Shown here piece by piece: positions 2 through 17,302 of a DNA stretch of 17,302 nt. The position numbers and the translations under genes are program-made. The notes below the pieces were generated by a model that was not told where the DNA came from, searched no databases, and saw only the letters and a program-made list of their open reading frames with translations. Numbering within the stretch: the stretch's first letter is position 1; every line of letters starts with the position of its first letter. This DNA comes from Willaertia magna (lineage: Eukaryota; Heterolobosea; Eutetramitea; Acrasida; Naegleriidae): the NCBI GenBank assembly GCA_902984215.1, contig CADWAF010003365.1:1-17302 (forward strand), in the 5' to 3' direction.

Positions 2-556
2 AATGGTAAAATTTCATGTGGTTTACACAGAGTTATACAATCAGATAATACTTTACAACAATTAGATAATAATTTACAACAAAATAATTGTAATGAAAAT
101 AATTATTACAATAATTATTACAATAATTTTACAATGAATAATTTTTCAGAAAGAATTACAATGTGGTATGAAGTTTGTGCAAAAGAACAAATTTCAAATA
201 AATTTTTACAATCAATTTTTTCATTACAACAAGTACAATTACAATTAAAATTAAAATTAAAAGGAGGAACCGAAAATGAAAATAATAATTTAAATAATGA
301 AAATAATTTAAATAAAATAATTACAGTCTTTATTAAAACATTAACTGGAAAGAAAGTTGAATTAAAAATTGAAGAAAATTCAACTGGTTATCAATTAAAA
401 AGATTATTAGAAGAAAAAGTTGGAATTCCACCACCAAAACAAAGAATTGTATTTAAAAAGTCAATTTTAGGAGATGATTGTATTTTGAGTAAAGTTGGGA
501 TTGAAGATCAAACTGTTTTACATTTAGTGTTGAGTTTAAGGGGTGGAAAAGATTAA
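2..556 (+). CDS. Ubiquitin-like protein with C-terminal Gly-Gly, 5' partial
   Basis: The frame is open to the window edge, so the gene starts upstream; the ATG at 134 is internal or an alternative start. Counting from that ATG, residues ~61-138 form a ubiquitin fold: an IKTLTGK first strand, the GIPPPKQR turn, the VLHLVLSLRGG tail, then a two-residue KD extension that a deubiquitinase would remove. Aligned by eye with ubiquitin, positions equivalent to K6, K11, K27 and K33 are Lys, while the K48 and K63 positions are Ser and Asp, so classical K48/K63 chains could not form on it. An upstream segment ending LKLKGG, with NGKIS and NTLQQL before it, looks like a degraded preceding unit, linked by an Asn/Glu-rich spacer. 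I infer a divergent tandem ubiquitin-like (polyubiquitin or NEDD8-like) protein conjugated to substrates. All Gln codons are CAA/CAG and the stop is TAA. Confidence 0.85.
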   Translation, partial: NGKISCGLHRVIQSDNTLQQLDNNLQQNNCNENNYYNNYYNNFTMNNFSERITMWYEVCAKEQISNKFLQSIFSLQQVQLQLKLKLKGGTENENNNLNNENNLNKIITVFIKTLTGKKVELKIEENSTGYQLKRLLEEKVGIPPPKQRIVFKKSILGDDCILSKVGIEDQTVLHLVLSLRGGKD

Positions 557-1031: not shown

Positions 1032-2273
1032 CTATTGTCCATTACTTGTTTGTGTCTGCTGTTTGTTGACACAATTGTTTTGTTTTTGTTTAAAATTTAA
1101 ATATTCCCTTAATGAATGAATAGAACTTGTAAATATCTTTTCTTCTTCATTTACAGTGGTTGTTGCCTCCTTCATTATTTCATCTTCTTCCTTATTCTCC
1201 TCTATATTATTATTCTGTATTAATAATCCATCATTATCGATTAATGGATCATCAAACCAATCAGTTTGTAGTTTTTCATCTAATTGTTCAATAATATCCA
1301 TTCTCTTTTTAGATTTAGCTTCTTGATAATAATCATCAATATTATCATCGACATCTGTTGTTTCCATCTTTCCAGCGTCATTGTCAATATGCCAATCTTC
1401 ATTTTCCCATTCATCCTTTTCATCTTCAGCCCATTCATTCTTTTCATCTTCATCCCATTCATTATCTTTTGTATCAGTATGTTCAAGCCAATCATTATCA
1501 AGCTCTCCATAATAACCATCTCCATCTGTGTGCCAATCAGCTAGATCATAATCACAATAATGACCTAAAAAGAACTCAATTTTATCTTTGTTGTAAGTAA
1601 AAAGTAAACTATTTGTAATATCGTTAGTGAACCAAGTATCTTTAGTATCAAAATCTTCCATGGCACTAAAATGATTGACATTTGTCATTTCATTATATTC
1701 TTTATCCAATAATTTCATCATTTCAATTCTCTTTTCCATCGTTGTATCATTATTTACAAAATTATTAACTCTCTTTTCATCAACAATTGAAGAATAATTT
1801 GGAAATAAATATTTTACATCATTTTTATTATTATTATCTTTAAAATTATAATTATGAAATAAAATTCCATGATTTAAATTTAACTGTTGTGGAGTTCCAT
1901 ATAATAATAAATAAATTTTTTGTAATTGAATATTTTTGTAAATTGAAAAGAAAAATTTTGAACATTTTGAAATATTTAACAAAGTATTTTCATCACAAAA
2001 ATAAAATATAATTTGTAATATTTCTGGAATGTTTGAAATTGTGTGAAATTTATTTTTTAATAAATTTTGTTCATTTTCTTCTTCATCAATTAAGTCACAA
2101 TTATTATTTTTATTGGAACAATATTGTTCAATAAAGGATTTCATTGCGTTAATGTCAAGATTTATATTTTTATCATTTTCATTATCTTGAAAATCGGAAA
2201 GTAAAAGAAATCTTTGTTTTAAAAGTTTTTGAAATAATTCACCAAGTTGTTCTTCTTCTATTTGATAATTCAT
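1032..2273 (-). CDS. Probable F-box protein with acidic Trp-rich repeat region
   Basis: 413 codons, ATG at 2273, stop TAG at 1032-1034, no internal stop. Residues ~78-122 match the F-box pattern: an IPEILQIIF start, a short acidic turn, a Leu/Ile helix, then a Cys/Phe-rich helix and LQKIYLLL. F-box proteins bring substrates to Skp1-cullin ubiquitin ligases; that role is inferred. Residues ~30-75 are Asn/Asp/Glu-rich. Residues ~245-345 are strongly acidic with many Trp, including three near-copies of an eight-residue N/D-E-W-x-E-D-E-K unit. No WD40, LRR or kelch domain follows, so the substrate-binding part is unrecognised. Trp is always TGG and Gln always CAA/CAG, which shows that the host uses the standard code. 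The F-box call rests on one pattern and could be wrong; the gene itself is secure. Confidence 0.65.
   Translation of the reverse strand: MNYQIEEEQLGELFQKLLKQRFLLLSDFQDNENDKNINLDINAMKSFIEQYCSNKNNNCDLIDEEENEQNLLKNKFHTISNIPEILQIIFYFCDENTLLNISKCSKFFFSIYKNIQLQKIYLLLYGTPQQLNLNHGILFHNYNFKDNNNKNDVKYLFPNYSSIVDEKRVNNFVNNDTTMEKRIEMMKLLDKEYNEMTNVNHFSAMEDFDTKDTWFTNDITNSLLFTYNKDKIEFFLGHYCDYDLADWHTDGDGYYGELDNDWLEHTDTKDNEWDEDEKNEWAEDEKDEWENEDWHIDNDAGKMETTDVDDNIDDYYQEAKSKKRMDIIEQLDEKLQTDWFDDPLIDNDGLLIQNNNIEENKEEDEIMKEATTTVNEEEKIFTSSIHSLREYLNFKQKQNNCVNKQQTQTSNGQ
1392..1463 (-). repeat. In-frame 24-bp tandem repeat inside the F-box gene
   Basis: Three imperfect 24-bp units encode residues ~271-294, each starting N/D-E-W and rich in Glu/Asp/Lys. 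The + strand shows it as repeated ttcatc and cccattcat blocks. Units differ mainly at the fourth residue. It is a coding minisatellite likely to vary in copy number. Confidence 0.7.
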
Positions 2274-2640
2274 TTTATTAATAAATGAAATAATAAAAAA
2301 GACATTACTGTAAATCTATTTTTTTTGTTCTTGCTTTTTTTTGTATTGACGTTTTTTAGATAAAATTTCAAAAATCCGGATAACTAGATTTTGGAAAACT
2401 TTTTAAAAAGTAATTACATTAATTTAGTCACAATTTAGTAAAAAAAAGTGTGACTACTATTTCTTTTCTAGTTGGGTTGAAAGTAGTTGTAAAATTTATA
2501 AATAAAGTAGATACAAATTTTTTATTTTATGTTTACAATAAATTTCAAAACACGTCTTCAAGAAAAATACAATTAGCCGGTATTTTCATAAAAGAAATTT
2601 ATTATTAAAACCAACCTTTAAAAACAACTCATCATACTTA
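2274..2640. other. Upstream region of the F-box gene
   Basis: Host-like composition, with scattered G and C, in contrast to what follows. It should contain the minus-strand promoter of the F-box gene; I see no distinctive promoter motif. No ORF. Confidence 0.4.
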
Positions 2641-3933
2641 ATACAAAGAATTAAATCATTTGATTAATCTTTTAAAGTAATTATTTTATTATTTAATACA
2701 CATAAAACTGTTATTTGTTTAAAATTTTTATTTTTTTTAATTTTATATTAAAATAAAATTCATTAAACAAATAATAATAGTCATTTTTATTTACATTGTA
2801 AACAGTAGATCTAAATTTATTAAAAATAATTAATCAATTTAAAATAAATAATTTAATAGCTTTTCTTTTTGAGTTATTTTTTTTTAATACTTCTAATAAT
2901 AATTCCAATAATATCTTACAAAACAAAACAAGATATTATAAATAAAAAGTTTAAATTATATATTGAATTAATAAAATATAAAAAACAATGATTAATTAAT
3001 ATTAATAAATGTAAGCTAAAATATTTTTTTATTTGTTATAAAATTTTAAATAATTTTTTTTATAAAAATATTTAAAAGTTAAATATATAAACATTTTTTT
3101 TAAATTAAACCATTATTTAATATTTATATTAAATATTTTTTAATATTACTATGAATTGTAAAAAATAAATATTAATATTAAACTTATCTACAAAATAAAA
3201 AAAAGCATTTATTATTATAAAAAAAATTATTGTTAAATTAAAAGAAAAATTAAAATTAAAATTATTTAATAATTATTTCAATTTATTATTGTTAATTTGT
3301 TTATTATATATATATATTAAAATATTATAAAAAAAATTATAAATAATCAAAACTAATTATAAAATATTTAAAAAATAAAAAAGTAAAACAATTTAATATT
3401 ATAATAAAATTATTAATATCTATTATATAAATATTAAAATTTTAATTAATGAATTTGCTATTTTTATTAATAAATTAAATAAAAAAAATTAGATTTTATT
3501 TTTTAATAATATACTATAATTAATAATAAAATAAATTTTATCAACATTAAATTTATATAAAGTTTTTAATATATAAATTTAATATTTTTTAAAAGAAACT
3601 TTTAAATATTTTTTATTATTAACTAAAAATTAAAAAAAGTCTAATAAATATTTTTTTAATATATTTTATTAAAATTTTATTAATAATAAAAAAATAATAT
3701 TATTATTCAGTTTTTTTTTATTATTTATTTTATATAAACTAAATTTAATAATTTTAATATTAAATTAAAATACATTATTAAAATTTGTAATGTAATTAAA
3801 AAAAATTTATTGTATTTACATTAATGTTAATAAATTTTTATTAATTTAACTTTTAATTTAAATTATTGATTATAAAGTATTTTAATAATTTTTTTTAAAA
3901 AAATTAATATTAATATTAAATAAAAAAACTTAT

Positions 3934-4028
3934 TTTTAGTAATATCTTTTAAATAAAAAATTATTTATTTATATAACTTTTATAGGGTTTCTTTAATTGA
4001 TTAAAAAAATTAAATGATATTACTAAAA
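3934..4028. repeat. Foldback with 13-bp perfect arms
   Basis: TTTTAGTAATATC at 3934-3946 is the exact reverse complement of 4016-4028, and the pairing extends imperfectly inward. The loop holds one of the few GGG runs in the desert (tatagggttt, ~3981-3990). It could be a tiny decayed MITE. Confidence 0.5.
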
Positions 4029-4050
4029 TTATATAATTTAAAATTAAATT

Positions 4051-4122
4051 TAATTAAAATTATTATTTATTAAGTTTAATTAAAATTATTATTTATTAAA
4101 TTTAATTAAAATTATTATCAAT
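4051..4122. repeat. 26-bp tandem repeat, about 2.7 copies
   Basis: The unit beginning taattaaaattattattt starts at 4051, 4077 and 4103. The first two units differ at one base; the third ends early. Non-coding. Confidence 0.75.
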
Positions 4123-4438
4123 TTTTTTTATTATTACTTAATTTATTAATAATGTTCATAATATAAATAATTTTAATACTTTTTAATTATTTATATTCTA
4201 ATGAAATAATAATATATGAAATTAGTAATATAATAAGATTAATATTATATTTTATTATTATATTTTTATTTTAAAATTTTGATATTTATTAAAAAAATAA
4301 TATTTTTTTTATTATTACTTATTTTTTTTCTTTAAAAAATAATTTTTTATGAAAATATTTAATTTATTTATTATTTATTCAAATAATTAATTTAAAAAAA
4401 ATACATTAATAACTTAATATCATTATTTAACAAACAAT

Positions 4439-6470
4439 ATGACCTCATTATTATCATTATCTCCCAAACCAAATAAAAATCATCAAAAACAAATACAGTA
4501 GAAACTTTTCAAGTTTGCGCAAAAAAAATTGAAAAAAAAATTGAAAAAAAAGTAAAAAAATTTTTCACAAGTTGCCTTTTAGAGTAGGTTTTTGAAGGGC
4601 ATTAGGTCTTATTTTGGTGGTATTGTGGGTAAAAATTGTGTATTCTTGCTTTATTAAAGAGAATTTGATTGAACGTTTAGGTTTTTTTCAACTCTAATTG
4701 CATAACTTACTTAATAAAGCAACCCTTCAAAATTCTATGTTTTTTCATGCACAAACTTAAAAAGTTTCTACTGTATTATCATTAATATAAGAAATTATTA
4801 ATGAATTTATTGAAGATTCAGATAATAATTATATTAAAAAAATTAAAAATCAATTATTAAAAGCAAAAGGATTAAAAGATGTTGAATTTGAAAAAAATAT
4901 AAATGTTAGAGAAATTTTTAGTATTGGTTTAAATAAAAAAAATAAAATAAAAAACAAATTAAACAATATTTTAAATCTAAAAATTTAAATATCAGTATTA
5001 ATAGTTATTTATTTAAAAAATAGGAAAATTTATTTATTGTAAATACTATATAAAAAAGAGATAATACTAATATTTATAAAAACATATTAGAAGATCCTAA
5101 TGAAATTAATGATGAAGAAAATGATAAAGAAATTGTAGAAAATTGATGTGATATGGTTAAAAAAATTAAAAAAATATATAAATTAAAAACAATATCAAAA
5201 ACAAATTATTTTATTATTCTTTTTGTAGTTATATTAAAAAATTAAGTTTAAGAGATCTATTTAGAGAATATGATAAATTTTTAAAAAAATTATTAAGAAG
5301 ATTATTATATAAATATAAAAATATAATTAATAAAGTATTACTATATTTAAATATTTATAGAAATTAAATATTACAATATTTAGATTTAAATAAAAATAAT
5401 AATTTAAGAACTTATATAATGTTTAAACAAGTATATATAAAAAGTTTTTATGGAGATTTTTTTGAATATGTTAAATTAGAATATATAAAATAAGAAAAAA
5501 TTAAAGATATAAAAGATAGAAATAAGATAAATAAATTTTTTATAATTAATATAGATTTTATAATTGTAAAAGATAAAAATTTAAATAATAATATTAGAAA
5601 TTAAAGAGTAATTTATGAAAAAAAATTTAAAATATAAATATAAATATAAAAAAACAAAAACTATTAAAAAATATTATAGTAGTAATAATTTAATTACAAA
5701 ATGAGATAATAATATTTATTGTAATTATATTAAAGAAAACAATTTAAAAAATTTAATTACAATTACAAATAAAAAATTAAAAACACTTATTAAAGTTATA
5801 CAAAAAAAAAATATTCTAAAATTAATTATAAAAGATGATTATAAAAATATTAATATTATTAATAATAATAATGAAATTAAAAAAGAAGAAATTAATAAAA
5901 ATTTTAAAGAAGAAGAAGAAGAAAATAATTTAAAAAATTATGAAAAAAAATTATTTTTAGATTAATAATAAATGATAAATATGATAGTGATGAATATAAT
6001 GATGAAGATTTTAAAAAAATTATTATTTTTATAAATATAATAAATTAAAAAATCGTCATAAAAATAAATATTAGAAATTAAAACATAAACATTATTTATA
6101 AAATAGTAAATTAAAGAAAAAATAAAAATTAAAAAAATAAAAATTATTAAAATTATATGAAAAATAGATTAATAATTTAAAAATTAAATTTAATTAACAA
6201 TATTCAAGTAAAAAAGATGATAATAGTGAAAAGAAAATAAATAAAAATTTTTTATAATTAAATAATATTTCTCAAAAAAAAAAAGAAAAAGAAAAAGAAG
6301 AAGAAGAAAAAGAAAATAATTTAAATAAAAGTGATTTAACTATTGAAAATATAAATAATAATTATATATCTAATAAAAAAAAAGAATTAAAAAATACTTT
6401 AAAAATAATTAATTCTATAAATACTTCTATTGTAAAAGATATAAAAATTATTTATATTGATTCTGATTAA
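4439..6470 (+). pseudogene. L1: homologue of recombinase gene R3 lacking the catalytic core
   Basis: Begins MTSLLSLSPK at 4439. Coding is recognisable only across in-frame stops and several frameshifts (near 4970, 5235, 5640, 5950, 6020). The N-terminal part resembles R3: LIQEI here (4782-4796) and LIQRI there (14445-14459), with TAA at 4788-4790 aligned to CAA at 14451. The C-terminal part matches too: KWDNNIYCNYIKENNL (5699-5746) against KWKSAILYDYCKKHNL (16325-16372), with the Trp written TGA in both. Boxes I and II of the recombinase are not found, so roughly 300 codons present in R3 are missing. Frame 6024-6470 is a Lys/Gln coiled-coil-like stretch with seven TAA/TAG at Gln-like places, then an acidic region ending IIYIDSD. 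A MITE interrupts codon 19. Probably non-functional, or a non-catalytic partner. Confidence 0.6.
4496..4773. mobile_element. MITE with Tc1/mariner-type ends, TA target duplication
   Basis: 25-bp terminal inverted repeats at 4496-4520 and 4749-4773 differ at two bases, both starting CAGTAGAAACTTTT and flanked by TA (4494-4495, 4774-4775). Internal arms also pair: TTTGAAGGG (4591-4599) with CCCTTCAA (4723-4730), and GCTTTATTAA (4648-4657) with its complement (4711-4720), so the whole unit can fold back. No ORF. Visibly richer in G and C than the element around it, in line with a later host-family insertion. CAGTAGAA...TA ends are typical of pogo/Tc1-mariner relatives; the family itself is not identified. 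Confidence 0.85.
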
Positions 6471-6650
6471 ATTATTATATATTAATTTTTAAAATAAAAT
6501 TATTATTTTTTTTAAATAATATTATATTTTCTTTATTTATTCGATTAAAAATTGAATATTAAAAAAGAAATTAATATAAAAATAATGTTTTATTAATATA
6601 AATAATAATTAAATACAAATTAAACCCCATTTTAATATTCTTTATCATCT

Positions 6651-8142
6651 TTAATATTTTTTTTTCTTTTTTAATTCTTTCTCTTCTTCAAAATCTAATA
6701 TTATTCTATTATTTTCAATCACTTCAATTGATCTATTAATATTAATTTTAATTTTTCTCTTATATAAATTACTTTTCTTTAACAAAAACAATACAACTTC
6801 AAATTTTCTTATTTCTACTATAGAATCATCAAAAAAAAAATTTTCTTAACCAAATCATTTACAGTAATATTATTTGTAAATAATATATTCTTTAAACATT
6901 CTATTATTAAAAAACCACTTTTGAAATCTGGAATAACAAGTAATAAAATTTGATTTTTTAAAATTGATAATTTATTTAATTTTAAATTATTATTACTAAA
7001 AAATATTTAATTAATAAAACAAAAATAAATTGTATTATTTTAATTGTTAAAATATAATAATATAGAAATTTTTTATTTATAATATTATTTTTTGATTTCT
7101 AATTTCAATAGGTTTAAATTTTAAAAAATAATTTAAATTAATACTATCTATTGAACATTGTAATAAATAAAATTTATAATAATTCCTTTTTTTTAAAATA
7201 AATTTTTTAATATTAAAATAAATTAAAAACCATCTTTTTGTTGTAGATTTTAATTTAAATAATATAAAAACAATGTTAATTGAATTATTATTAGAAATTA
7301 AATTATTAATTAAAAAATTATTTATATTTATATCATTATAATTATTAATTTTAAATAATAATTTTTCACTTTCTTTATAATTTAATAAAGAATTTTTTAA
7401 ATTTAATAATTATAAATAAATATGTTTACTTATTAAAATTTTTATTTATTAAAATAATTAAATTTAATAAAATTATTACTTACATTCCAATTAATAATAC
7501 TAATAAATAATTTTTCTTTTTTAAAATTTAAAATCTATTTCAAATAAATCTTTAAAATATATTAAATATAAATCAGAAATACCTTTTATTGAATTATAAG
7601 TATATTTAAATAAATTAATTATTTCATTTTCTTTTAAATATTTATTATAAAAAAGGTCTTTATATTTTTTTTATATATTAATGTTATATTATTTTAAATT
7701 ATTTATTAAATCATTTTGACCTTTATTGTAAATACTAAAAATAAATAAAGTTTTATAATTTTTAATAATAGGTAATGAAGAGGTTTTAATTGATTTTAAT
7801 AATGGTAATAAATTAATTTTATATTGTTCTTCTTGTTGAGTTTTTTATTGATTTGATTGTTGTTGTTGTTGTTGTTGTTTTGTTTTATTTAATTGTTTTT
7901 GTTAATTAGTGTTTGTATTAATAATAGTAATTATATTAGAGCTAAAAGTTGTTTTGTTAATAATTTATTGTATATGTTGATCATTATATCTATTAATTAA
8001 ATTTTTCTTTAAGTTATTTTGTTATTTATATATTTTTTTTATTATTTTTTAAAAAAAAACATTATCATAATGAAGTTTCAGAATTATTTTTTTTAAATAA
8101 TCTTTCAATAGGACATCTAAAAAGAAAAATTGTTTAAATCAT
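6651..8142 (-). pseudogene. L2: homologue of R1, unknown function
   Basis: Likely start is the ATG at 8142-8140, giving M-I-stop-TIFLFRCPIERLF, comparable with the HPKKLY start region of R1. Frame 8024-7500 runs ~175 codons with seven in-frame TAA (ends at 8022, 7965, 7902, 7845, 7689, 7671, 7521) and no frameshift. Several of these TAA sit next to CAA in a Gln-rich region that includes seven CAA in a row. Further on, RWFLIYFNI and RNYYKF (7187-7170) match NWYIIFFNV and RNYYKF of R1, and EIDFKF..KII.Y matches QIDLVFLKDKIKY. There the TAA at 7523-7521 faces a Leu TTA of R1, not a Gln. Frameshifts occur near 7490, 7000 and 6832. The C-terminus is Glu/Lys-rich. No known domain recognised. Confidence 0.6.
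7857..7877 (-). repeat. (CAA)7 polyglutamine microsatellite
   Basis: Seven consecutive CAA codons in the L2 frame, with TAA codons close on both sides (7902, 7845). None of the seven has become TAA, which suggests recent expansion or selection for Gln. Confidence 0.85.
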
Positions 8143-8208
8143 TAAAAATAATAAAAAATTAATTAAAAAAATATAATAATCGTTTTATTTATTTCATTTA
8201 AGTAAACA

Positions 8209-9288
8209 ATGAAAATTATAATTATTCTTTTTAATGATAATAATTTATTTTTTTTTACTACCAACATTGTAAAACAATAATACAAAATAATAACCCTAAT
8301 AATCAAAATAATCAAATTAACGATCTCAAAGATAAAAATATTATTTCGTATCAACAAAATAAAGATTAATACTTATTATCACTACTAATATTACCTATTA
8401 TTAGTAATAAACAATAATTAAATTATTTTTTACGTTCAAATAAAAAAATAAATGATTTACAAAATATAATTAAAAATATATTAAATCAATAATTATTTTT
8501 TTCTTTCTCTATCCAAAGTTTACTAAAAGATGATAGCATTTTAAAAAATATTATTTCTATTGAAAAAAAAATTAATCTTTAAATTAATATTAAAGAAAGT
8601 AAAATTTTCATAAATTTATTAACAACATTATTTGATAATTTAATTCTTGAATAATCTAATAATTATTTATTAGATTTATTAGAAAAATATAATAAGCTTT
8701 ATAATTATGTTATTATTTTAGAAAGTAAATTAGTTGATATTTTTAATAGATTATAATTTGATGATGATGCTATTAAAATAAATAGTTATTTTATTATTAA
8801 AAATATTAATCAAAAAAATTCAAAAAAAAAGTACTATTTTATTAATTAATAAAATTAATGACCTTAATAAAGATAAAAATAAATCAAAAAACAAAAAAAA
8901 GGTTAACAAAAAGATAAAAAAGATAGAGAAGCTAAAAAAAAAAGAAAAAAAAGAAAAAAAAAGATAATAATTAATTAAAGAAAAAAATTATTATTATAAA
9001 AACAAACAAAAGCCCTTAAAAAGAAAAAGAAGATTAAAAAGAAAAAAAAAGAAGAAAAAACAAAAAAAACAAAAAAGTAATTTAAAAAATAATATTATTA
9101 TTCTTAACAAAAAAGATTTTGAAGAAGTTGTTAATATAGAATTTGAAGAAGAAGAATATAAAGATTTAAAAGAAAAAGAAGAAGATGATGATAATGAAAA
9201 AGATAATAAAAATATTATTTAATCTTTTGTTAAGGAAAATGATAGTGATAATAATGAAAATGGGTTTGGATTTAATGGAAATACTATA
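8209..9288 (+). pseudogene. L3: homologue of the N-terminal part of R2, truncated
   Basis: ATG at 8209 is followed by a frameshift in a T run; frame 3 (codons starting at multiples of 3) is then open from ~8245 to ~8835, about 195 codons, interrupted only by six TAA (8367, 8415, 8490, 8580, 8652, 8754), with no TAG, no TGA and no frameshift. DLLEKYNKLYNYVIILESKL (8673-8732) aligns with DLLSNYLNLQNYISILQYKL of R2 (11683-11742), 11 of 20 identical. After one frameshift near 8835 comes a long Lys block (~8850-9090), then Glu/Asp clusters with VVNIEFEEEE, mirroring the Lys/Glu block of R2. The match ends at Asn-Thr-Ile-Ser near 9288, where foreign-looking sequence begins. Function unknown. Confidence 0.6.
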
Positions 9289-9497
9289 TCCAGAACATAG
9301 CACGTCCTTTTTTAGGACTTCCAAATAATTTCTATATATAATAGGGGATCTAAAGTACAACCTATATAGAATCTGTTTAAAAATATACATAGGTTACCTT
9401 AGTACAATATAGTGACTTGAATTTGTCTCCCGTGGACTTTGTAAAAAAATCTTAAAAATAAGGTCAATAAATTTTTTTTAATTTTTAAACAATATTT
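9289..9497. other. G+C-richer patch at the junction of the two element copies
   Basis: Not coding. Composition is clearly different from both sides (tagcacgtcc, aggggatc, gtctcccgtgg). Contains a perfect hairpin GTCCT-AGGAC at 9304-9318, and AACCTAT (9359-9365) pairing with ATAGGTT (9389-9395). It cuts L3 off from the rest of its R2-like sequence. It could be host DNA left between two insertions, a small insertion, or a terminal structure of the right element. Confidence 0.45.
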
Positions 9498-9513
9498 TAT
9501 GATAAACATCACA
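9498..9513 (+). repeat. Palindromic box A1
   Basis: TATGATAAACATCACA, followed by aactaaaaaagaaatac and, ~25 bases on, aattgaaaaaagttcaaat. First member of a pair 96 bases apart, outside the 3' end of R1. Confidence 0.75.
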
Positions 9514-9593
9514 AACTAAAAAAGAAATACTTTTCTAATTGAAAAAAGTTCAAATAATTGGAAAATGAAAAAATTATAAATTATTTTATATTT

Positions 9594-9609
9594 TGTGATG
9601 GACATCACA
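9594..9609 (+). repeat. Palindromic box A2
   Basis: TGTGATGGACATCACA: perfect 7-bp arms around a 2-bp centre. The following ~55 bases repeat those after A1 (aactaaaaagaaaatacc, then aattgagaaaagtcaaa). Confidence 0.85.
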
Positions 9610-9701
9610 AACTAAAAAGAAAATACCTTCCCAATTGAGAAAAGTCAAAATATTGGAATACAATAAAATAGAAAAATTACACACTTTATTTATTACATTC
9701 A

Positions 9702-11025
9702 TTAATCACCATTATCATTTCTAATTTCTTCAGTTCTGTCATTTTTAGGTTGTTTATAAATAAAATATTTAAAGAGACTATTTAATATTTGATATTTGAT
9801 AATTGTGACAGTATTTAAATTAATAATAAAATTATGATAAATTATATATTCATCACTGTCAAATATATTCTTGTCTATAAATAAGAGAGATTTTAATAAT
9901 TCTATTGATACAAAATCCCTATATTGTATTTGAATATTTAATGGAATAAAATCTTTATATAAACGACATATTTTTAAATTATTAATTTTTAAATTTTCTC
10001 TTAAAGCATCATCATTAAAGTTTTTACTATTATTAAAATTAAAAAACTTATAAAGAAAATTCCAAATAAATCTAATAGCTCTACTAATATAAATAAAATC
10101 AAAATAAAGACTTTCAAATAAAAAAAATTTGTTCCATAAATTAGTGTAAAAAAATTTATAATAATTTCTTTGATTTCTTTTAAATTCATCCACATTAAAA
10201 AAAATAATATACCAATTATTAATTACACTTAAACCTTCAAATACAAAACTAATATAGAGTAATCTTTATAACAGTTAAAAAAATTATTCTAATATTCAAA
10301 TAAATCCTTATTTAAAGCCCATTTACTGAGTTAAATTAAATTATTGTAATTTTCATTATTAACATTAAATTTATTTAATTCCTCATTATCATCATATTTA
10401 ATAACATCATTAATAGAAATAAATGGAATATAACAATATTTAATTTTATCTTTTAAAAAAACTAAATCAATTTGTAATTTACTTAAATATCAAAAAAGTA
10501 AATCCATATATTCATTTAATATTTTATAATTACTTAAAAATAAATTAAAATCAATATTTTGAGTATCATTATTAATATAAAAATTTTCATATTCATTATT
10601 AATTTCTTTATCACTTTTTTTAAATTTTTCAATTACTTTTAAAAACATATCCTTTAAAAAATTTGGACTGTTATAATTAAAATTAAATTTATGAATAAGA
10701 TTAGAAAGATCAAAAAGAGAAGTAATTTCATTTGAAGTTTTTAATATTTGTGGAATTGTTTTACTTAATAAATTATTATTCTTTTTTTTAATACTAACAG
10801 TACTTTTAGATATGGTTGGAACTTTTTTTTATTTGTTTTTTGTTTTTTATTCATTTTTTTTTCTTTAATACGATTACTTCTTTTAAGAGTAATTTCTTTA
10901 CTTTGTTCAGTAGTGGTTGATGATGAAGTAAATGATGAAGCGAATGATAAAGCAAGTGATGAAGATGTATCAGAATATAATTTTTTTGGATGTTTAAATG
11001 CTTTTTTATTATTATTATTAACCAT
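9702..11025 (-). pseudogene. R1: unknown element protein, homologue of L2
   Basis: ATG at 11025 (MVNNNNKKAFKHPKK), about 440 codons, stop TAA at 9704-9702 with TGA and two more TAA in the next four codons. Two frameshifts split it, near 10800 (A run) and ~10240. In-frame stops are TGA at 10492-10490 (between Phe and Tyr), TAA at 10333-10331 and TAG at 10291-10289. The N-terminus is Ser/Thr-rich then basic (KRSNRIKEKKMNKKQK), a possible nuclear localisation signal; the rest is a helical Phe/Tyr/Asn-rich protein. Most Trp codons are TGG and most Gln codons CAA, so stop-like codons are less frequent than in L2. NWYIIFFNV and RNYYKF (10169-10152) anchor the alignment to L2. It is transcribed away from R2 and shares its promoter region. 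No known domain recognised. Confidence 0.65.
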
Positions 11026-11113
11026 TTTTTTTAATTAATTTATAAAAATTTTTGAATTTCAATAAATACTTTATAATAACAATTGAAAAGTTACCAGCTT
11101 TAATTTTAAAATC

Positions 11114-11129
11114 TGTGATGAGTATTACA
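11114..11129 (+). repeat. Palindromic box B1
   Basis: TGTGATGAGTATTACA, imperfect right arm, followed by actcaaaaaggaaatatcc, like the flank of the other boxes. Confidence 0.7.
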
Positions 11130-11276
11130 ACTCAAAAAGGAAATATCCGATAAATAATAAAAAGTATCAAATTTAATGTTTTATTATATTTTTAATTGAA
11201 TAACATTTAAAAATTAAGAGCTTTATTGATCTTTAAATTTAAATTGAGAAAACATTTAAAAAAACTAAGTAAAATC

Positions 11277-11292
11277 TATGATGGGCATCACA
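11277..11292 (+). repeat. Palindromic box B2
   Basis: TATGATGGGCATCACA, followed by gataaataaggaaagag. Same orientation as B1, 163 bases away. Confidence 0.75.
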
Positions 11293-11369
11293 GATAAATA
11301 AGGAAAGAGATGACATAAGTTTGAAAAAGAACATGAAAATTGATTAAATTTATTTTTCAATTGAAAAAA

Positions 11370-14159
11370 ATGAGCAACATAAATAATGCTGTATCTAATT
11401 CTTAAATTGATACTTCAGTTTCTTCTAATAATGAAGAAAATAACAATATTAATTTATTCGAGATTATACCTACTCCACTAAGTATAAGCGAAGCTATATC
11501 TTTATTATTATTTGATCCACAACTTTTTTATCACCTATACTTCATTCATCTCCTATTTCTACTAATACAACTTTTGAAATTGAAAATATTAATGATATTA
11601 ATAGTTGTTAAAAACTATTCTTCTGTTTGATGAAATTAAAGGAGAAAATAATGATTTCTTATATGACAATTTAAATTGTAAAGATTTATTATCTAATTAT
11701 TTAAATTTACAAAATTATATATCTATTTTACAATATAAGTTATTAGAAATTAATAAAAAAGCATTTTCAAATAATATAAAACTTAATATTATTACACCAG
11801 AAAATATAATAACTCTAAGTACTTCCTTAAAGCCTCTTTCATCAGTTCTCCCTATAACATCAATTATTAATACCGCTGTTGGACCAATATCAACAAAAAG
11901 AAAAGTTCAAACAGGTAAATCTTTAAATGGAGATAAAGAAGATTCAGAAGAAGAAGAAAAAGGAGAAGAAGAAGAAAAAACTAAAAAGGCTAGTAGTTCT
12001 TCAAGTTCATAACTACAATTTAAAGGTGACAGTTCAAAAAAAAAAAACTGCTCCAAAAGAACTAAAGAAAAAAAAGAAAAAAGAAAAACCAATATATATA
12101 GATGATAAATATGAAATTTTTTCAACAGTATCATTTAAAGAAAAAGAACGTATTTTAGGAGTATCAGTTTTTAGTCAACCTTTTGATGAAGAAAATACTA
12201 TAACAACACCATCTCTATGCCTTGCAAATATTGAACCATTTTAAGAAACAGAAGTTGATGTAGGAGTAAAGATTAATAAAATAAATGAAGAAGATTATAA
12301 AAATATTAAATTTGTATTAGAAGAAGTTCTTAATCCAAGTATTATCAGTTTTTTAATTCCATATACTTTTAATAAGAAAACTGAAAGTATTAAAAAGAAT
12401 ATAACTTTTAAGAAAAAATTAGATATTGTTTGTGCACTTGCTTGGTTAAATTATAAACAGTTAACTAATGAGAAAATAGTTGTATCTATAAATATATTTA
12501 GAGAATATTTAAGAGAATTTGTAGAACAATATAATATTTCTTTTAAATTACAAAATTTAATTAAAACCCTTGAAGATAAACGTAAAGAATTTAATAAAAA
12601 ACAACAACAAGAACAAAATTTAGAGGATTCTGATTTTTCAAAATATTTAAGTAATACAGAAATGAATTTAAAGATTAGATATTTAAAACTTAAATATAAG
12701 AATGTGATATTACTAGATTTAAAAGAATTAATTGATAATTCTTCTATAGATATTAAATTATATTGGTTAAATTTTATAAATGCTTCAATATTAACTAAAT
12801 CTTCAATTCCTAAAAGTAGTAGAGAAATGATTTTATTTTTAGAAAAATTTAAAGATTTATTTTTATTTTATTATACTTTAAAATATACTACTACTATTGA
12901 TAGTTATTATAAATTAATTAATATTTATTTTTCTTTAAGAGCATTCATTAGTGAACAATCAATTAATAATAATTTGCCAAATGTTATTAAAAAAAAGTAA
13001 AATTAATTTTACATTTTTTAATTCAACTTGATTTACCTTTTGGTTATAACTTTTTTGTATAAAGTACCAGTTTTATTAATTAATTTAAAAATTTAGACCC
13101 AAATTTTAATACTAATATTGTTCAAAATTATTTTAAGACTTATGAAGAATATGTTGAAAATGTGGAAGATGTATTAAATGAAGAATTAGAGAAGAAAAAA
13201 GAAAGGACATTTTTTAGTCTTTTTGAAGATGATAATTTTTTCAATACTAATCCTATTTATCAAATAATAATAATGATACTATAGAAAAAATCAACATAAA
13301 TGAAACTAAATAATATTGAATGAAAGCTTTAAATAGTGTGATAAAATCAATTCAAAAAAGAACACATATAGGTATTGCTAAAGAAATTATGGAAAGAGCT
13401 GATAGTTTTTGGAGCATTTCCGATGAATATGACGTGTTTGTTGAAAGATTTGTTTTGATTTTAACTGAAATTGCTAGAGGTATTAAATTGAAATAATTAA
13501 ATATTGATATAAATGAAGAAATTCAATATTTTATACCTTCCGCTGAGGCAATTTCTGCAATAGTAATTGATGAAAGTAATTTTAGGGTTTTGAAAGTGGC
13601 TTTTTTAATTAATTTTGTCTTACTTTATAGAAAAAGAAAAGTTTGTTATGTGGTTGGTACTTATGGTAAAATGGGTTTTAAGAATGTAGATGATTATTTA
13701 TGTCATGTTTTTGATAAAGATAGAACAATTTTAGCTAAAAGAAATTATTTAATCACTTTTTTTGAAACATATTCACCATTAATTATATTTGTAAATCAGG
13801 TAAATGTATTATCAAAATTAGTTATTGTAAGAGAAGTAGAAAATTATATTGCTAAAAATTCAAATAAGTATTCTAAAATTATTAATAGTGCAGAAGCAAT
13901 TAGAGAAGCATTAATTTATTTAGCTAAATTTGATAAATTTGAACGTGTTAAGTTTAAATTATCAGAAAATGGTGAACTTAAACAAAGTATTATTGTAGGT
14001 TATAGTTTTTTAATTCTTACTTTAAATGCTTTAATTAGACCAGTAGATGAGAATAATTTTGATAATATTGTGGTCAATGATAATTTATTTACAATTCCTA
14101 TAGCTTATATTGAAAAAATGGATCCTCTTGTTGATATATTAATTGAAGAAGATGAATAG
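11370..14159 (+). pseudogene. R2: large unknown element protein, homologue of L3
   Basis: Start MSNINNAVSN at 11370; TAG at 14157-14159 ends the last frame; about 930 codons. In-frame stops: TAA at 11403, 12010, 12242, 13060, 13081, 13311 and 13494, and TGA at 13317. Frame changes near 11525, 11604, 12040 (12-A run), 12990 (8-A run) and 13262 (AAT repeat). Layout: an Asn/Ser-rich N-terminus; a helical domain shared with L3 (DLLSNYLNLQNYISILQYKL, 11683-11742); a Glu then Lys/Ser-rich linker (~11890-12090); then a long helical part with LDIVCALAWLNY near 12420-12455 and a final ~298-codon frame (13266-14159) without frameshift. No catalytic motif recognised. It precedes R3 on the same strand and may be a DNA-binding or packaging partner of the recombinase, which is only a guess. 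Confidence 0.6.
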
Positions 14160-14244
14160 ATGAATAGTGTTGTTGTAATTGTAATAGTGTGTTTTGTGAC
14201 TGTAATAATAAAACCAATTTTTATTATCTTTCTACACAATATTT

Positions 14245-14260
14245 TGTGATAAGCATCACA
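14245..14260 (+). repeat. Palindromic box C1
   Basis: TGTGATAAGCATCACA, followed by acccaaaaagaaaatacct and then atatgaaaaaggccaaat. Closest relative of A2. Confidence 0.8.
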
Positions 14261-14330
14261 ACCCAAAAAGAAAATACCTTCTTTATATGAAAAAGGCCAA
14301 ATAATTGAAAAAAAATATTGAATAATATTT

Positions 14331-14346
14331 TATAATGGGCATCACA
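14331..14346 (+). repeat. Palindromic box C2
   Basis: TATAATGGGCATCACA, followed by aatatataaagaaattac. The left arm is degraded. Confidence 0.65.
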
Positions 14347-14374
14347 AATATATAAAGAAATTACTGTTACTTTG

Positions 14375-16915
14375 ATGACAACGTCTATTGTTAAACTATT
14401 TTACTAAAAAAATATCATTAAGTAAACAAAGTCAATACTTTAAATTAATACAACGTATTCAAATATTAATAAATAATGTAACTGATGATGGTAAAGGTGT
14501 ACTATCTGAAACTCAAAAAGAATATGAAAAAACTTATTGTTTAAAGAAAGATATTTTAAAAGAAATTAGATTAGATAATTTATCATTTAGTAAAGAAAAC
14601 ACTTGAAAATTTGCAAATATAAATGATAATGAAAAACAGATATTTGAAAAAACAAGTATTGTACTTGTAAATAGATGTAATACTTTTGATTTACTCTCTT
14701 CTATAAATAATGAAACAAATTCTAAAGATTTTGATTTTAATGAATTATTTGATATTGATAATAATAATAATTTTAAAGCAGATTTTGATACAAATTTTGA
14801 AACTAATTCTAATGTTGAAGTACATGAAGGTGTTTTAAATGAATATTTCTTTGTACAAGCAATTATTGATATTGAAAATATAGGTGTATTTGAATCTACT
14901 AAACGATTATATGATTATACTTATAGACATTATAAATTTTTTTTATGAAACATTTAAAAATAAATTAGAAAATTTTAATAATGGAAATAAATTTTCTGTA
15001 CAAGAATTTACATGTAAATTGTATGTATTATATTTAATGAATATTAAAAAGTTTACTTTTTCTACAATTATTCAGTTTGCTTATAGTATGCTTAATAATA
15101 TAAACAAAAAATTAACTGGTAATTATATTGTGGATGAATTTAAGTATTTCTTTTTTGGTATTATTAAAAGAATTGGTTTTGATCAACGTAAAGTAAATTT
15201 TTTATTGAATGGACCTAAATGGAAAATGTTGAATTCTTTAAATCAATTAATAGAAAAAGATGCTTTGATGGTTGCTTTAATAGCTCAAGGTAGATTACGT
15301 GGTTTAAGATCTGATGCATGGTAAAATTATGCATTAAAAGATTTAACTTTTATTACTTTGAATCATCCAAATAGTACCAAAGTACTTTATACAAGACTTT
15401 AGATTAGAAAAGATAAAGTAATTTTAAAAAAACCTCGTAATCAAACACTTTATGGATATATTAATTATAAATTATGCCCTAATATCGCATTGTTGGTTTA
15501 TTTAATTAAAATTAGACAATGTTTTAAAATAAATGATTTAGTAAAATTAATGACAAAAGGTATAGATGATCTTAAATTTAAAGGTTGGGAAATTAAAGAA
15601 GAATGTAAAAATCAACCAACATTTTCAAAACAGTCACTTGAACTTCCTTTGATTAATAAGAATATTTCAAATAGATTAATTGCTTTATCTAAGAAATTAA
15701 ATTTATCAAGATATTCTTCAAGAAGTTTTAGATTTGGTTTATGTTGTTTATTGTTTATATGTTTTAATTCCAATGGTATTACTGTTAATGATAATATAAA
15801 GGAAAAGATTGCAGAATTTATTGGCTGAAGTGATGTCAAAATGGTAAACGTATATAACTGTGACATCACTAACTATGCTACATCTGTTGGATTGTATTCT
15901 GAAAATAGAGATGATAATTATGCCTAAAAGATGAAAGAATTAATGATTAAAAAAGATGAAAAGCTTAATTTAATTGAAGATAATTCTTATAATGATTATA
16001 ATGAAAGAGTTAAATTAAAAGATATTACTGAGAAAGATTTTTATATTAATGAAGAATATTTTAAAAATTATAAACTTGTAATACCATATGATAGAATTTC
16101 ATTAACTTTATCTTGTTATTTAAGAATTAAAGATAAATTTACAAAAAAAATATTAATAAGAAAGACTAAATGGAAAAAAATATAAAAATACAACAATTCG
16201 TTTAACAACTTTGAAATATGCAAATAAAGTTATTTCAGATTTTCAAATGGAGAGAAGTATTTATTATAATGATGATTTAAATTCTAAACAGAGAAGAAAT
16301 TTAAAGAAATATTTATTAGTTAAAAAATGAAAATCTGCAATTTTATATGATTATTGTAAAAAACATAATTTAACTATTGTTCCTGATGGTAAAAGTTTAA
16401 AAGTAGTTCCATCTAAAAATGTAGTTGAATTAAATAAGAAAAGAAGTATTAAAGAAATATTAGTTAAACAAAATAATATTAAATTAACAAATTCTAATTA
16501 CAGAAAAGAATATAGTAAATTAACTTTAAAAATTAAATATCATACTCAAGTAAATGCCAAAAAATATAAAATAGCTTTACAAAAAATTAATAAGAAATAA
16601 GGTATTCAAAATGAAATAGATGATTCATTAGATAAATTAATTGAAAAAGATAAAAAAGAAAAAATTAAATATAAAAAAATTTCAAAAAAATTAAATATTA
16701 ATAATAATTTTGATTATTATAATATATTTAATTTATCTTCTGATGATGATGATAATGATGATATTGAAGAAATTGAAAAAGAAAAAACAGAATTTGTTAT
16801 TTTCAAAGAAGAAGAAGAAGAAGGGTAAAGTATTTTTATTAGTGATACTGATACAGATAATTATAAAAGTAATTTAGAAAAATTAAATGATTTATTAAAT
16901 AATAAAAAAAATTAA
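14375..16915 (+). pseudogene. R3: tyrosine recombinase of the element
   Basis: ATG at 14375 (MTTSI), frameshift within ~15 bases, another near 14940 and one near 16187. Between 14940 and 16185 one frame holds the whole catalytic domain. Box I is GRLRGLRSDAW with Arg at 15307-15309, 12 residues (inclusive) before the Asp of LKDL, as in XerC-type enzymes. Box II is SRSFRFG, Arg at 15730-15732, with Arg in place of the usual His. Box III is G-TGA-SDVKMVNVY with Tyr at 15853-15855, ten positions from the TGA. In-frame stops: TGA 14604, TAA 15322, TAG 15400, TGA 15826, TAA 15925, TGA 16328, TAA 16598, TAA 16826. The ~330-residue C-terminal extension is basic, then acidic, with SUMO-interaction-like IFISDTDTD. 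After 16915 a shifted frame continues as TIVDTNSESE to ~17061. It should catalyse excision and integration of the element. Confidence 0.8.
15829..15870. repeat. 10-bp inverted repeat in the recombinase catalytic region
   Basis: AGTGATGTCA (15829-15838) and TGACATCACT (15861-15870) are perfect complements around a 22-base centre. The arms contain GTGATG and CATCAC, the same core as the six intergenic boxes. It starts directly after the TGA of box III and spans the catalytic Tyr codon. Confidence 0.7.
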
Positions 16916-17302
16916 AGTACACTATTGTAGATACCAATAGCGAAAGTGAATATAATATAAATATTAATATTACTGATGATGAATTTATTTCAGAAAAAAA
17001 TATCTATAGTATTAATAATAATGAAATATTTAATAATACAAATATTTTTTTAAATTTAATATAAAAATAATTATATAATTTTTAATAATACAAAATTAAT
17101 AAAATATTTATATTTATTAATATAATTTAATTTTACAATCTAATTTAAGTATTTTTAATTTTTATAAAATTAATATATATTTTATTATATATTAAATAAT
17201 TATATTTTATTTGAAAATTGGCTAACCAGTAAGTCAAATAAAATTTTTATTTAATTTTTTTAAATCAAAATTTTTAAATTAATTTATTTTTTGAAAATAT
17301 TT
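16916..17302. other. 3' end of the right element and following AT-rich sequence
   Basis: 16919-17061 reads as a coding-like tail of R3 in a shifted frame (TIVDTNSESEYNINI, ending with TAA at about 17059). Beyond it there is no ORF. A short less AT-rich patch near 17211-17240 (gaaaattggctaaccagtaa) may mark the edge of the element. No palindromic box here, and no terminal repeat matching the left side was found. Confidence 0.4.

Follow-up and report, generated by a model that had tools for sequence, protein, structure and literature searches.

The 17,302-base window analyzed here is the complete contig CADWAF010003365.1 of the heterolobosean amoeba Willaertia magna, which is contig C551 of the 19.24 Mb, 894-contig genome used for comparison (C-numbers designate contigs of that genome). 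It contains two adjoining copies of a multi-gene mobile element with a tyrosine-recombinase-like gene, and the genes of both copies are interrupted by in-frame stop codons. A preliminary description of this DNA had listed six element genes with TAA or TAG at glutamine-like and TGA at tryptophan-like positions, and had offered two explanations: a genetic code of the element's own, or the decay of standard-code genes through C-to-T and G-to-A changes. Our analysis indicates that the stops very probably arise in standard-code genes by C-to-T decay and not by a new code. The six genes are present as relics; since the older copy ends at about position 9280 and a second copy begins there, they represent two element copies of three genes each (Table 1).

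To place the two copies, we aligned them with related sequences in the genome. In the left half, positions 4775-9262 align with sister copies on C312 and C846 at mostly 79-91% and 57-82% DNA identity, respectively, in blocks of 250 columns. In the right half, positions 9280-11282 are 94.4% identical to C786 from position 17345; farther to the left the two sequences have nothing of this match. Judged by these alignments, the younger element truncates the older one at about 9280.

Table 1. Positions of the element copies, relic genes and other features in the window.
Feature	Position	Strand	Remarks
Older, heavily decayed element copy	4440..9279		DNA alignment to C312 and C846; left edge approximate
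L1, relic tyrosine-recombinase-like gene, C846/C312 type	4791..6110	+	alignment to sister copies
L2, relic gene	6635..7844	-	homologue of C312:6859-7683 and C846:77956-79637
L3, relic, N-terminal part of large gene	8421..9262	+	C846 copy is the open 1165-codon frame; truncated at the younger element
Younger element copy	9280..16950		left edge (~9280) is the start of identity with C786:17345; right edge approximate
R1, relic gene	9702..11034	-	piece 9705-10262 has 88% protein identity to C786:17774-18319
R2, relic large gene	11605..14159	+	distant homologue of the C846 1165-codon frame
R3, relic tyrosine-recombinase-like gene	14607..16600	+	closest relative C178, 48% over piece 15403-15825
Imperfect palindromes of the kind TGTGATNNNCATCACA, two copies	9492..9609		intergenic gaps; others near 11114, 11278, 14245 and 14334
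Insert resembling a miniature inverted-repeat transposable element (MITE), 289 bp, 37-nt terminal inverted repeats	4491..4779	+	arms 89% complementary
Host open reading frame (ORF), C-terminal ubiquitin-like domain	2..556	+	open, standard code; 5' end beyond contig; PF00240, E 8.7e-17
Host ORF, weak F-box-like match	1032..2315	-	open, standard code; PF00646, E 0.05, below cut-off
Very AT-rich stretch, 6-10% GC	2650..4440		between host genes and older element

Analysis of the sister genes bears directly on the code. A piece of R3 (15403-15825) matches ten other places in the genome, of which seven have no stop within the match and three have one or two TAA. The seven stop-free places belong to open frames of 470-830 codons, those on C360 and C378 running off the contig end, and the large gene has an open frame of 1165 codons on C846. 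Because these sister genes read open in the standard code, we conclude that the family uses it. Glutamine is also encoded in the usual way: at the 23 codons where both left-half sisters have Gln, the window has CAA at 18, TAA at three, TAG at one and another codon at one. A code of the element's own, with TAA and TAG read as Gln and TGA as Trp as in some ciliates, is therefore extremely improbable, since the sister genes are open without it and CAA survives at 18 of the 23 codons where both sisters have Gln, though 46% of all C/G changed. What speaks for it among the sisters is the recombinase frame of C846, which is open but for two in-frame TAA, one of them at a position where C312 has CAA and the window TAA.

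Stop counts in the right half agree with what had been described. The R3 core (14938-16182, forward strand, 415 codons) contains exactly two TAA, one TAG and one TGA, and the end of R2 (13266-14156, 297 codons) contains two TAA and one TGA. Both stretches have fewer stops than all 100 order-1 Markov simulations, in which the lowest counts were eight per 298 codons and 13 per 415. The claims for the left half were only partly matched, and the ranges behind these counts may differ from the earlier gene numbering: the best 195 codons of L3 (8418-9279, forward strand) do hold six stops, but as four TAA and two TAG and not as six TAA, and the best 175 codons of L2 (6600-7950, reverse strand) hold eight TAA and one TAG where seven TAA had been reported. 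By the number of stops alone neither gene is convincing: six or fewer stops in 195 codons were reached by 13 of 100 simulations, and the most open run of 175 codons in the whole left half, with four stops, was equalled in 2 of 100. The L genes are nevertheless regarded as relic genes, because they can be aligned with the genes of the sister copies.

The residues that the stops face were then tabulated. Over 1093 ungapped codons of the left half there are 27 stops in the window, one in C846 and 11 in C312; left-half stops within distant alignments (79, off-frame alignments included) were excluded from the counts. In at least one sister, 14 of the 27 window stops face Gln and four face Trp, in agreement with what recoding would give, and nine face neither, which recoding does not explain. 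In the right half, where the relatives are 26-41% identical and such columns say little on the immediate ancestor, 16 stops lie inside alignments. Two of the three TGA face only Trp, again as recoding would have it, two of the 12 TAA face any Gln, and the single TAG faces Leu, Ile, Trp or Thr. The reported placement of stops at Gln-like and Trp-like positions thus applies to a good part of the left half, and most right-half stops are at neither. Decay would generate the same tendency: CAA and CAG would turn into TAA and TAG, and TGG into TGA, TAG or TAA, so that stops would accumulate at Gln and Trp codons without recoding.

The base changes of the older copy were followed at the 3085 left-half sites where C312 and C846 agree, and the window differs at 330 of them. 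Of 469 C/G sites, 218 had become T/A; of 2616 A/T sites, 58 showed an A-T swap and 32 a change of A>G or T>C. Both strands were affected alike (C>T at 100 of 210 sites, G>A at 118 of 259). In addition, 31 of the 43 gaps relative to C312, coding and non-coding pooled, are not multiples of three, which agrees with the earlier reading of the frameshifts as a sign of decay and is a further argument against recoding.

If TAA encoded Gln, CAA-to-TAA should behave as a silent change, and a comparison of per-codon rates had been proposed. Between the window and C312, transitions at C/G were found at 16 of 47 nonsense, 239 of 515 missense and 48 of 79 silent positions (nonsense against silent p 0.0055, nonsense against missense p 0.13), and between the window and C846 at 15 of 69, 287 of 578 and 46 of 77 (p 4e-6 against silent and 1e-5 against missense), counts that in both pairs include changes on the sister branches. 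A stricter count, made at codons where both sisters agree, gave a weaker difference, with seven of 26 nonsense and 97 of 206 missense positions changed (p 0.06), and three of seven silent. In the window, therefore, CAA-to-TAA is rarer than silent C-to-T, and the comparison does not favour a new code. Since the gradient from nonsense over missense to silent follows the standard code, it is a hint that these copies were at some time under selection.

Decayed copies of the same element genes, which we call ghosts, occur elsewhere in the genome. They were detected by a search in which C was collapsed to T and G to A (purine/pyrimidine, R/Y); it returned 24,520 matches, compared with 24,315 for reversed queries, the best of which reached 200 bits. 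Matches below that score carry no meaning, and the ghosts were taken from the 45 matches listed, which provided six ghost pairs, studied together with the C786 pair. The ghost at C423:9288-10761 has 98.0% R/Y identity to the open copy at C423:17064-15592, the ghost at C846:71301-72410 has 94.5% to C846:76104-77226, that at C192:2393-3361 has 91.6% to C178, and further ghosts are found among the matches listed. The C423 ghost has lost 125 of 346 C/G, with 12 transversions in 1465 sites and six A-T swaps in 1119 A/T sites.

Four of the six ghosts were set in frame (1289 codons). Transitions in them were found at 40 of 78 nonsense, 413 of 746 missense and 70 of 152 silent positions, and nonsense differs neither from missense (p 0.55) nor from silent (p 0.49), which indicates that no selection at all acts on these copies. 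The preliminary description had regarded equal decay at all such sites as the mark of plain pseudogenization, and by this measure as well the ghosts speak against a new code. Of their 47 new stops, 35 derive from CAA, CAG, CGA or TGG. The comparison of the window with C786 points the same way. Over 361 codons, R1 and its C786 relative show 38 nonsynonymous and seven synonymous differences, close to the 167:21 offered by unselected C/G transitions. At three stop codons of C786 the window copy encodes Gln, Gln and Trp, and two more stop positions are common to both. Transitions, which run in both directions, make up 85 of the 94 mismatches between the window and C786. The genome thus supports decay by C-to-T and G-to-A changes more strongly than was visible from the window alone.

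Sequence context was examined in the six ghosts and in a degraded set, drawn from 32 alignment rows, of seven pairs with a GC-poorer member and six control pairs; the context sets of degraded pairs and ghost pairs overlap. In the seven degraded pairs the changes affected 594 of 1135 CpA, 508 of 1101 CpT, 178 of 417 CpC and 45 of 95 CpG, and in the six ghosts 287 of 525, 230 of 457, 114 of 204 and 39 of 62, respectively. No clear preference for a neighbouring base was found over these two sets, with CpG judged on 95 and 62 sites, and the window alone, with 14 of 45 CpC and none of four CpG, offers too few sites to weigh.

The frequency of C>T/G>A per site was also divided by that of A-T swaps. 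The six ghost pairs gave ratios of 8 to 67, the most diverged pair having the lowest, and the seven degraded pairs gave 7.6-32.9. In comparison, six pairs in which both members are open gave 1.3-3.5 (one member, C846, has two TAA), and 307 fourfold sites from open pairs gave 2.8 (32 transitions and 102 A-T differences); such sites are old and partly saturated, and some members recur among the pairs. A general AT bias of mutation in all unconstrained DNA, without involvement of methylation, would agree with a GC content of 0.099 at fourfold sites of open copies and of 8-18%, on average per contig examined, in ORF-free stretches of at least 300 bp. We consider it improbable in view of the ratio of 2.8 at fourfold sites, itself a control from repeat genes only, against 8 to 67 in ghosts. 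Sequencing or assembly error is exceedingly improbable: the assembly is fragmented into 894 contigs and many of the frameshifts are of one base, as such error would produce, but it cannot explain why C-to-T changes occur on both strands and, per site, exceed A-T changes 8- to 67-fold, and it would not have spared the host ORFs. Both flanking ORFs read open in the standard code, as had been noticed before.

The decay is best explained as follows. The genes belong to a multi-gene mobile element that uses the standard code, and both window copies are dead. Decayed copies lose C:G to T:A on both strands and next to any neighbouring base; the likeliest cause would be that cytosines of silenced repeats are methylated in any context and that the 5-methylcytosine is then deaminated. 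For this cause, taken alone, we have a modest preference, by analogy with a related amoeba. The genome of W. magna has a DNMT1-like gene, whose longest match crosses one TAG and one TAA (perhaps introns), a DNMT2-like gene, and two weak TET/JBP matches below cut-off. In Naegleria gruberi, according to a published methylome study, methylation does not differ among the four CpN contexts, is enriched on repeats and is higher in younger insertions than in older ones (PMC12344493).

An active mutator triggered by duplication, similar to fungal repeat-induced point mutation (RIP) and striking new copies in bursts, could take the place of slow deamination of methylated cytosines. Nearly pure transitions in the youngest pairs (the C423 ghost, and the window against C786) and the presence of degraded and open copies within one contig are in its favour. 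Fungal RIP prefers CpA or CpG, is triggered by duplication, is tied to the sexual cycle and involves a methyltransferase of the RID or DIM-2 type. Here neither CpA nor CpG is preferred, several sister copies are open despite duplication, and deamination of 5-methylcytosine can yield similar transition ratios, so that such a mutator appears rather unlikely.

Several observations weigh against decay as the whole explanation, or against methylation as its cause. Nonsense changes in the window are rarer than silent ones, so that there may have been some past selection, or selection on the sister branches biases the count. The recombinase genes of C846 and C312 share a TAA at what appears by eye to be the same column, for which a parallel change or a shared dead ancestor may account, and seven of the 27 left-half stops are also stops in C312, which means that the copies are not fully independent. 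The stops that lie off Gln and Trp, a third of those in the left half and most in the right, leave C-to-T as part of the story only. The ghost pairs and degraded pairs were chosen for having one GC-poorer member; this choice determines which way the bias points, but it does not account for the low rates of transversion. Finally, the methylation evidence comes from N. gruberi and not from W. magna, and passages of the same study give methylation there as 0.28% genome-wide with few sites fully methylated (PMC12344493), so that strong deamination is not assured.

The element itself was characterized from its sister copies. In seven aligned sister proteins of the recombinase-like gene, inspection revealed as invariant R262, K295, R396, G430-W431 and Y440, and position 399 is Arg in six of the seven and His in the C360 protein. 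The corresponding residues of Cre are R173, K201, H289-SA-R292, G314-W315 and Y324, with the same spacing from Gly-Trp to Tyr. The designation tyrosine-recombinase-like is thus a call at the level of sequence motifs. No Pfam match above cut-off was obtained for any element gene scanned among the window pieces and open sister genes, a PDB profile search of the recombinase-like protein gave chance-level matches only, and hhalign against Cre, FimB, FimE and lambda Int gave no significant match. The predicted structure of one W. magna protein, made with no alignment, was too poor to use (predicted local distance difference test score 33.8), and the 29, 7995 and 7996 candidates scored included no homologue from any organism but W. 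magna. Within that species, an open element protein of this genome has a perfect counterpart (100% identity) among the hypothetical proteins.

Gene order differs between subfamilies: the recombinase-like gene comes first in the older copy and in C846, and last in the younger copy and in C178. On C504 (1319-14569) open genes of 1181, 830, 620, 460, 434, 420 and 193 codons surround a recombinase-like gene in an element-like run, and a Pfam search with five of them (all but the 1181- and 620-codon frames) found nothing above cut-off. The TGTGATNNNCATCACA-type palindromes of the younger copy, which are possibly a binding site of an element protein, fall in the ranges 9492-9609, 11114-11293 and 14239-14349, and are present in the C786 relative too. 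With a loose pattern, one palindrome on C504 was the only close match in another element contig among the matches listed. Stretches related to the MITE-like insert lie on C172 (71%) and, for part of its length, on C501 (92%).

No tRNA gene was found in the window; the genome listing gives 63 tRNA places. A plasmid search with positions 9300-16000 gave no match. A published study of W. magna describes, in the passages considered, one intact-looking endogenous viral capsid gene (PMC11702301), and nothing in the present analysis linked these elements to a virus. The AT-rich stretch at 2650-4440 may be an older ghost; the R/Y-collapsed search of 2316-4440 had no row among the 45 matches listed. 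Elsewhere, the ORF-free stretches C846:65024-75028, C178:11300-16111 and C192:559-5471, with 8-9% GC, contain ghosts of element genes, which implies that part of the genome's AT-rich islands are decayed elements.

What is new at this locus is a decay footprint and not a code. These data do away with a misleading hint of a new genetic code and point to a trap, since in an AT-rich genome C-to-T decay mimics the reassignment of stops to Gln and Trp. They also provide a DNA footprint of context-free repeat decay in Heterolobosea. This footprint is in keeping with the methylome published for Naegleria, and methylation data can test it. A search of titles and opening parts of abstracts, with most subscription journals outside its reach, found no earlier report of such decay in protists or Heterolobosea. 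More tentatively, and with considerable doubt, one may suggest that mobile-element copies of a heterolobosean amoeba are the target of an active C-to-T mutator without context preference, a RIP-like defence outside fungi, and that the ghosts form part of its AT-rich islands.

Compared with known systems, the window resembles the stop reassignment of Condylostoma and karyorelict ciliates in that some TAA and TAG lie near Gln columns and TGA near Trp columns, and it differs in that read-through as a rule, tested here, was not borne out. Cryptons and DIRS elements are mobile elements with a tyrosine recombinase; the elements described here share with them invariant Arg, Lys, Arg, Gly-Trp and Tyr, with the Gly-Trp-to-Tyr spacing of Cre, but have several long genes each and no Pfam or PDB profile match. 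A further parallel is the 5-methylcytosine of N. gruberi repeats, also in Heterolobosea, also directed at repeats and, like the decay here, without context preference. That study reports methylation and not a mutational footprint and leaves Willaertia unmentioned, and the passages considered contain no C-to-T decay of repeats (PMC12344493). With fungal RIP, the copies studied here have in common the change of C:G to T:A on both strands of mobile-element DNA, the stops at CAA and TGG and the AT-rich ghosts, and they differ from it in that no dinucleotide is preferred, the host lies outside the fungi and the methyltransferase found is DNMT1-like.

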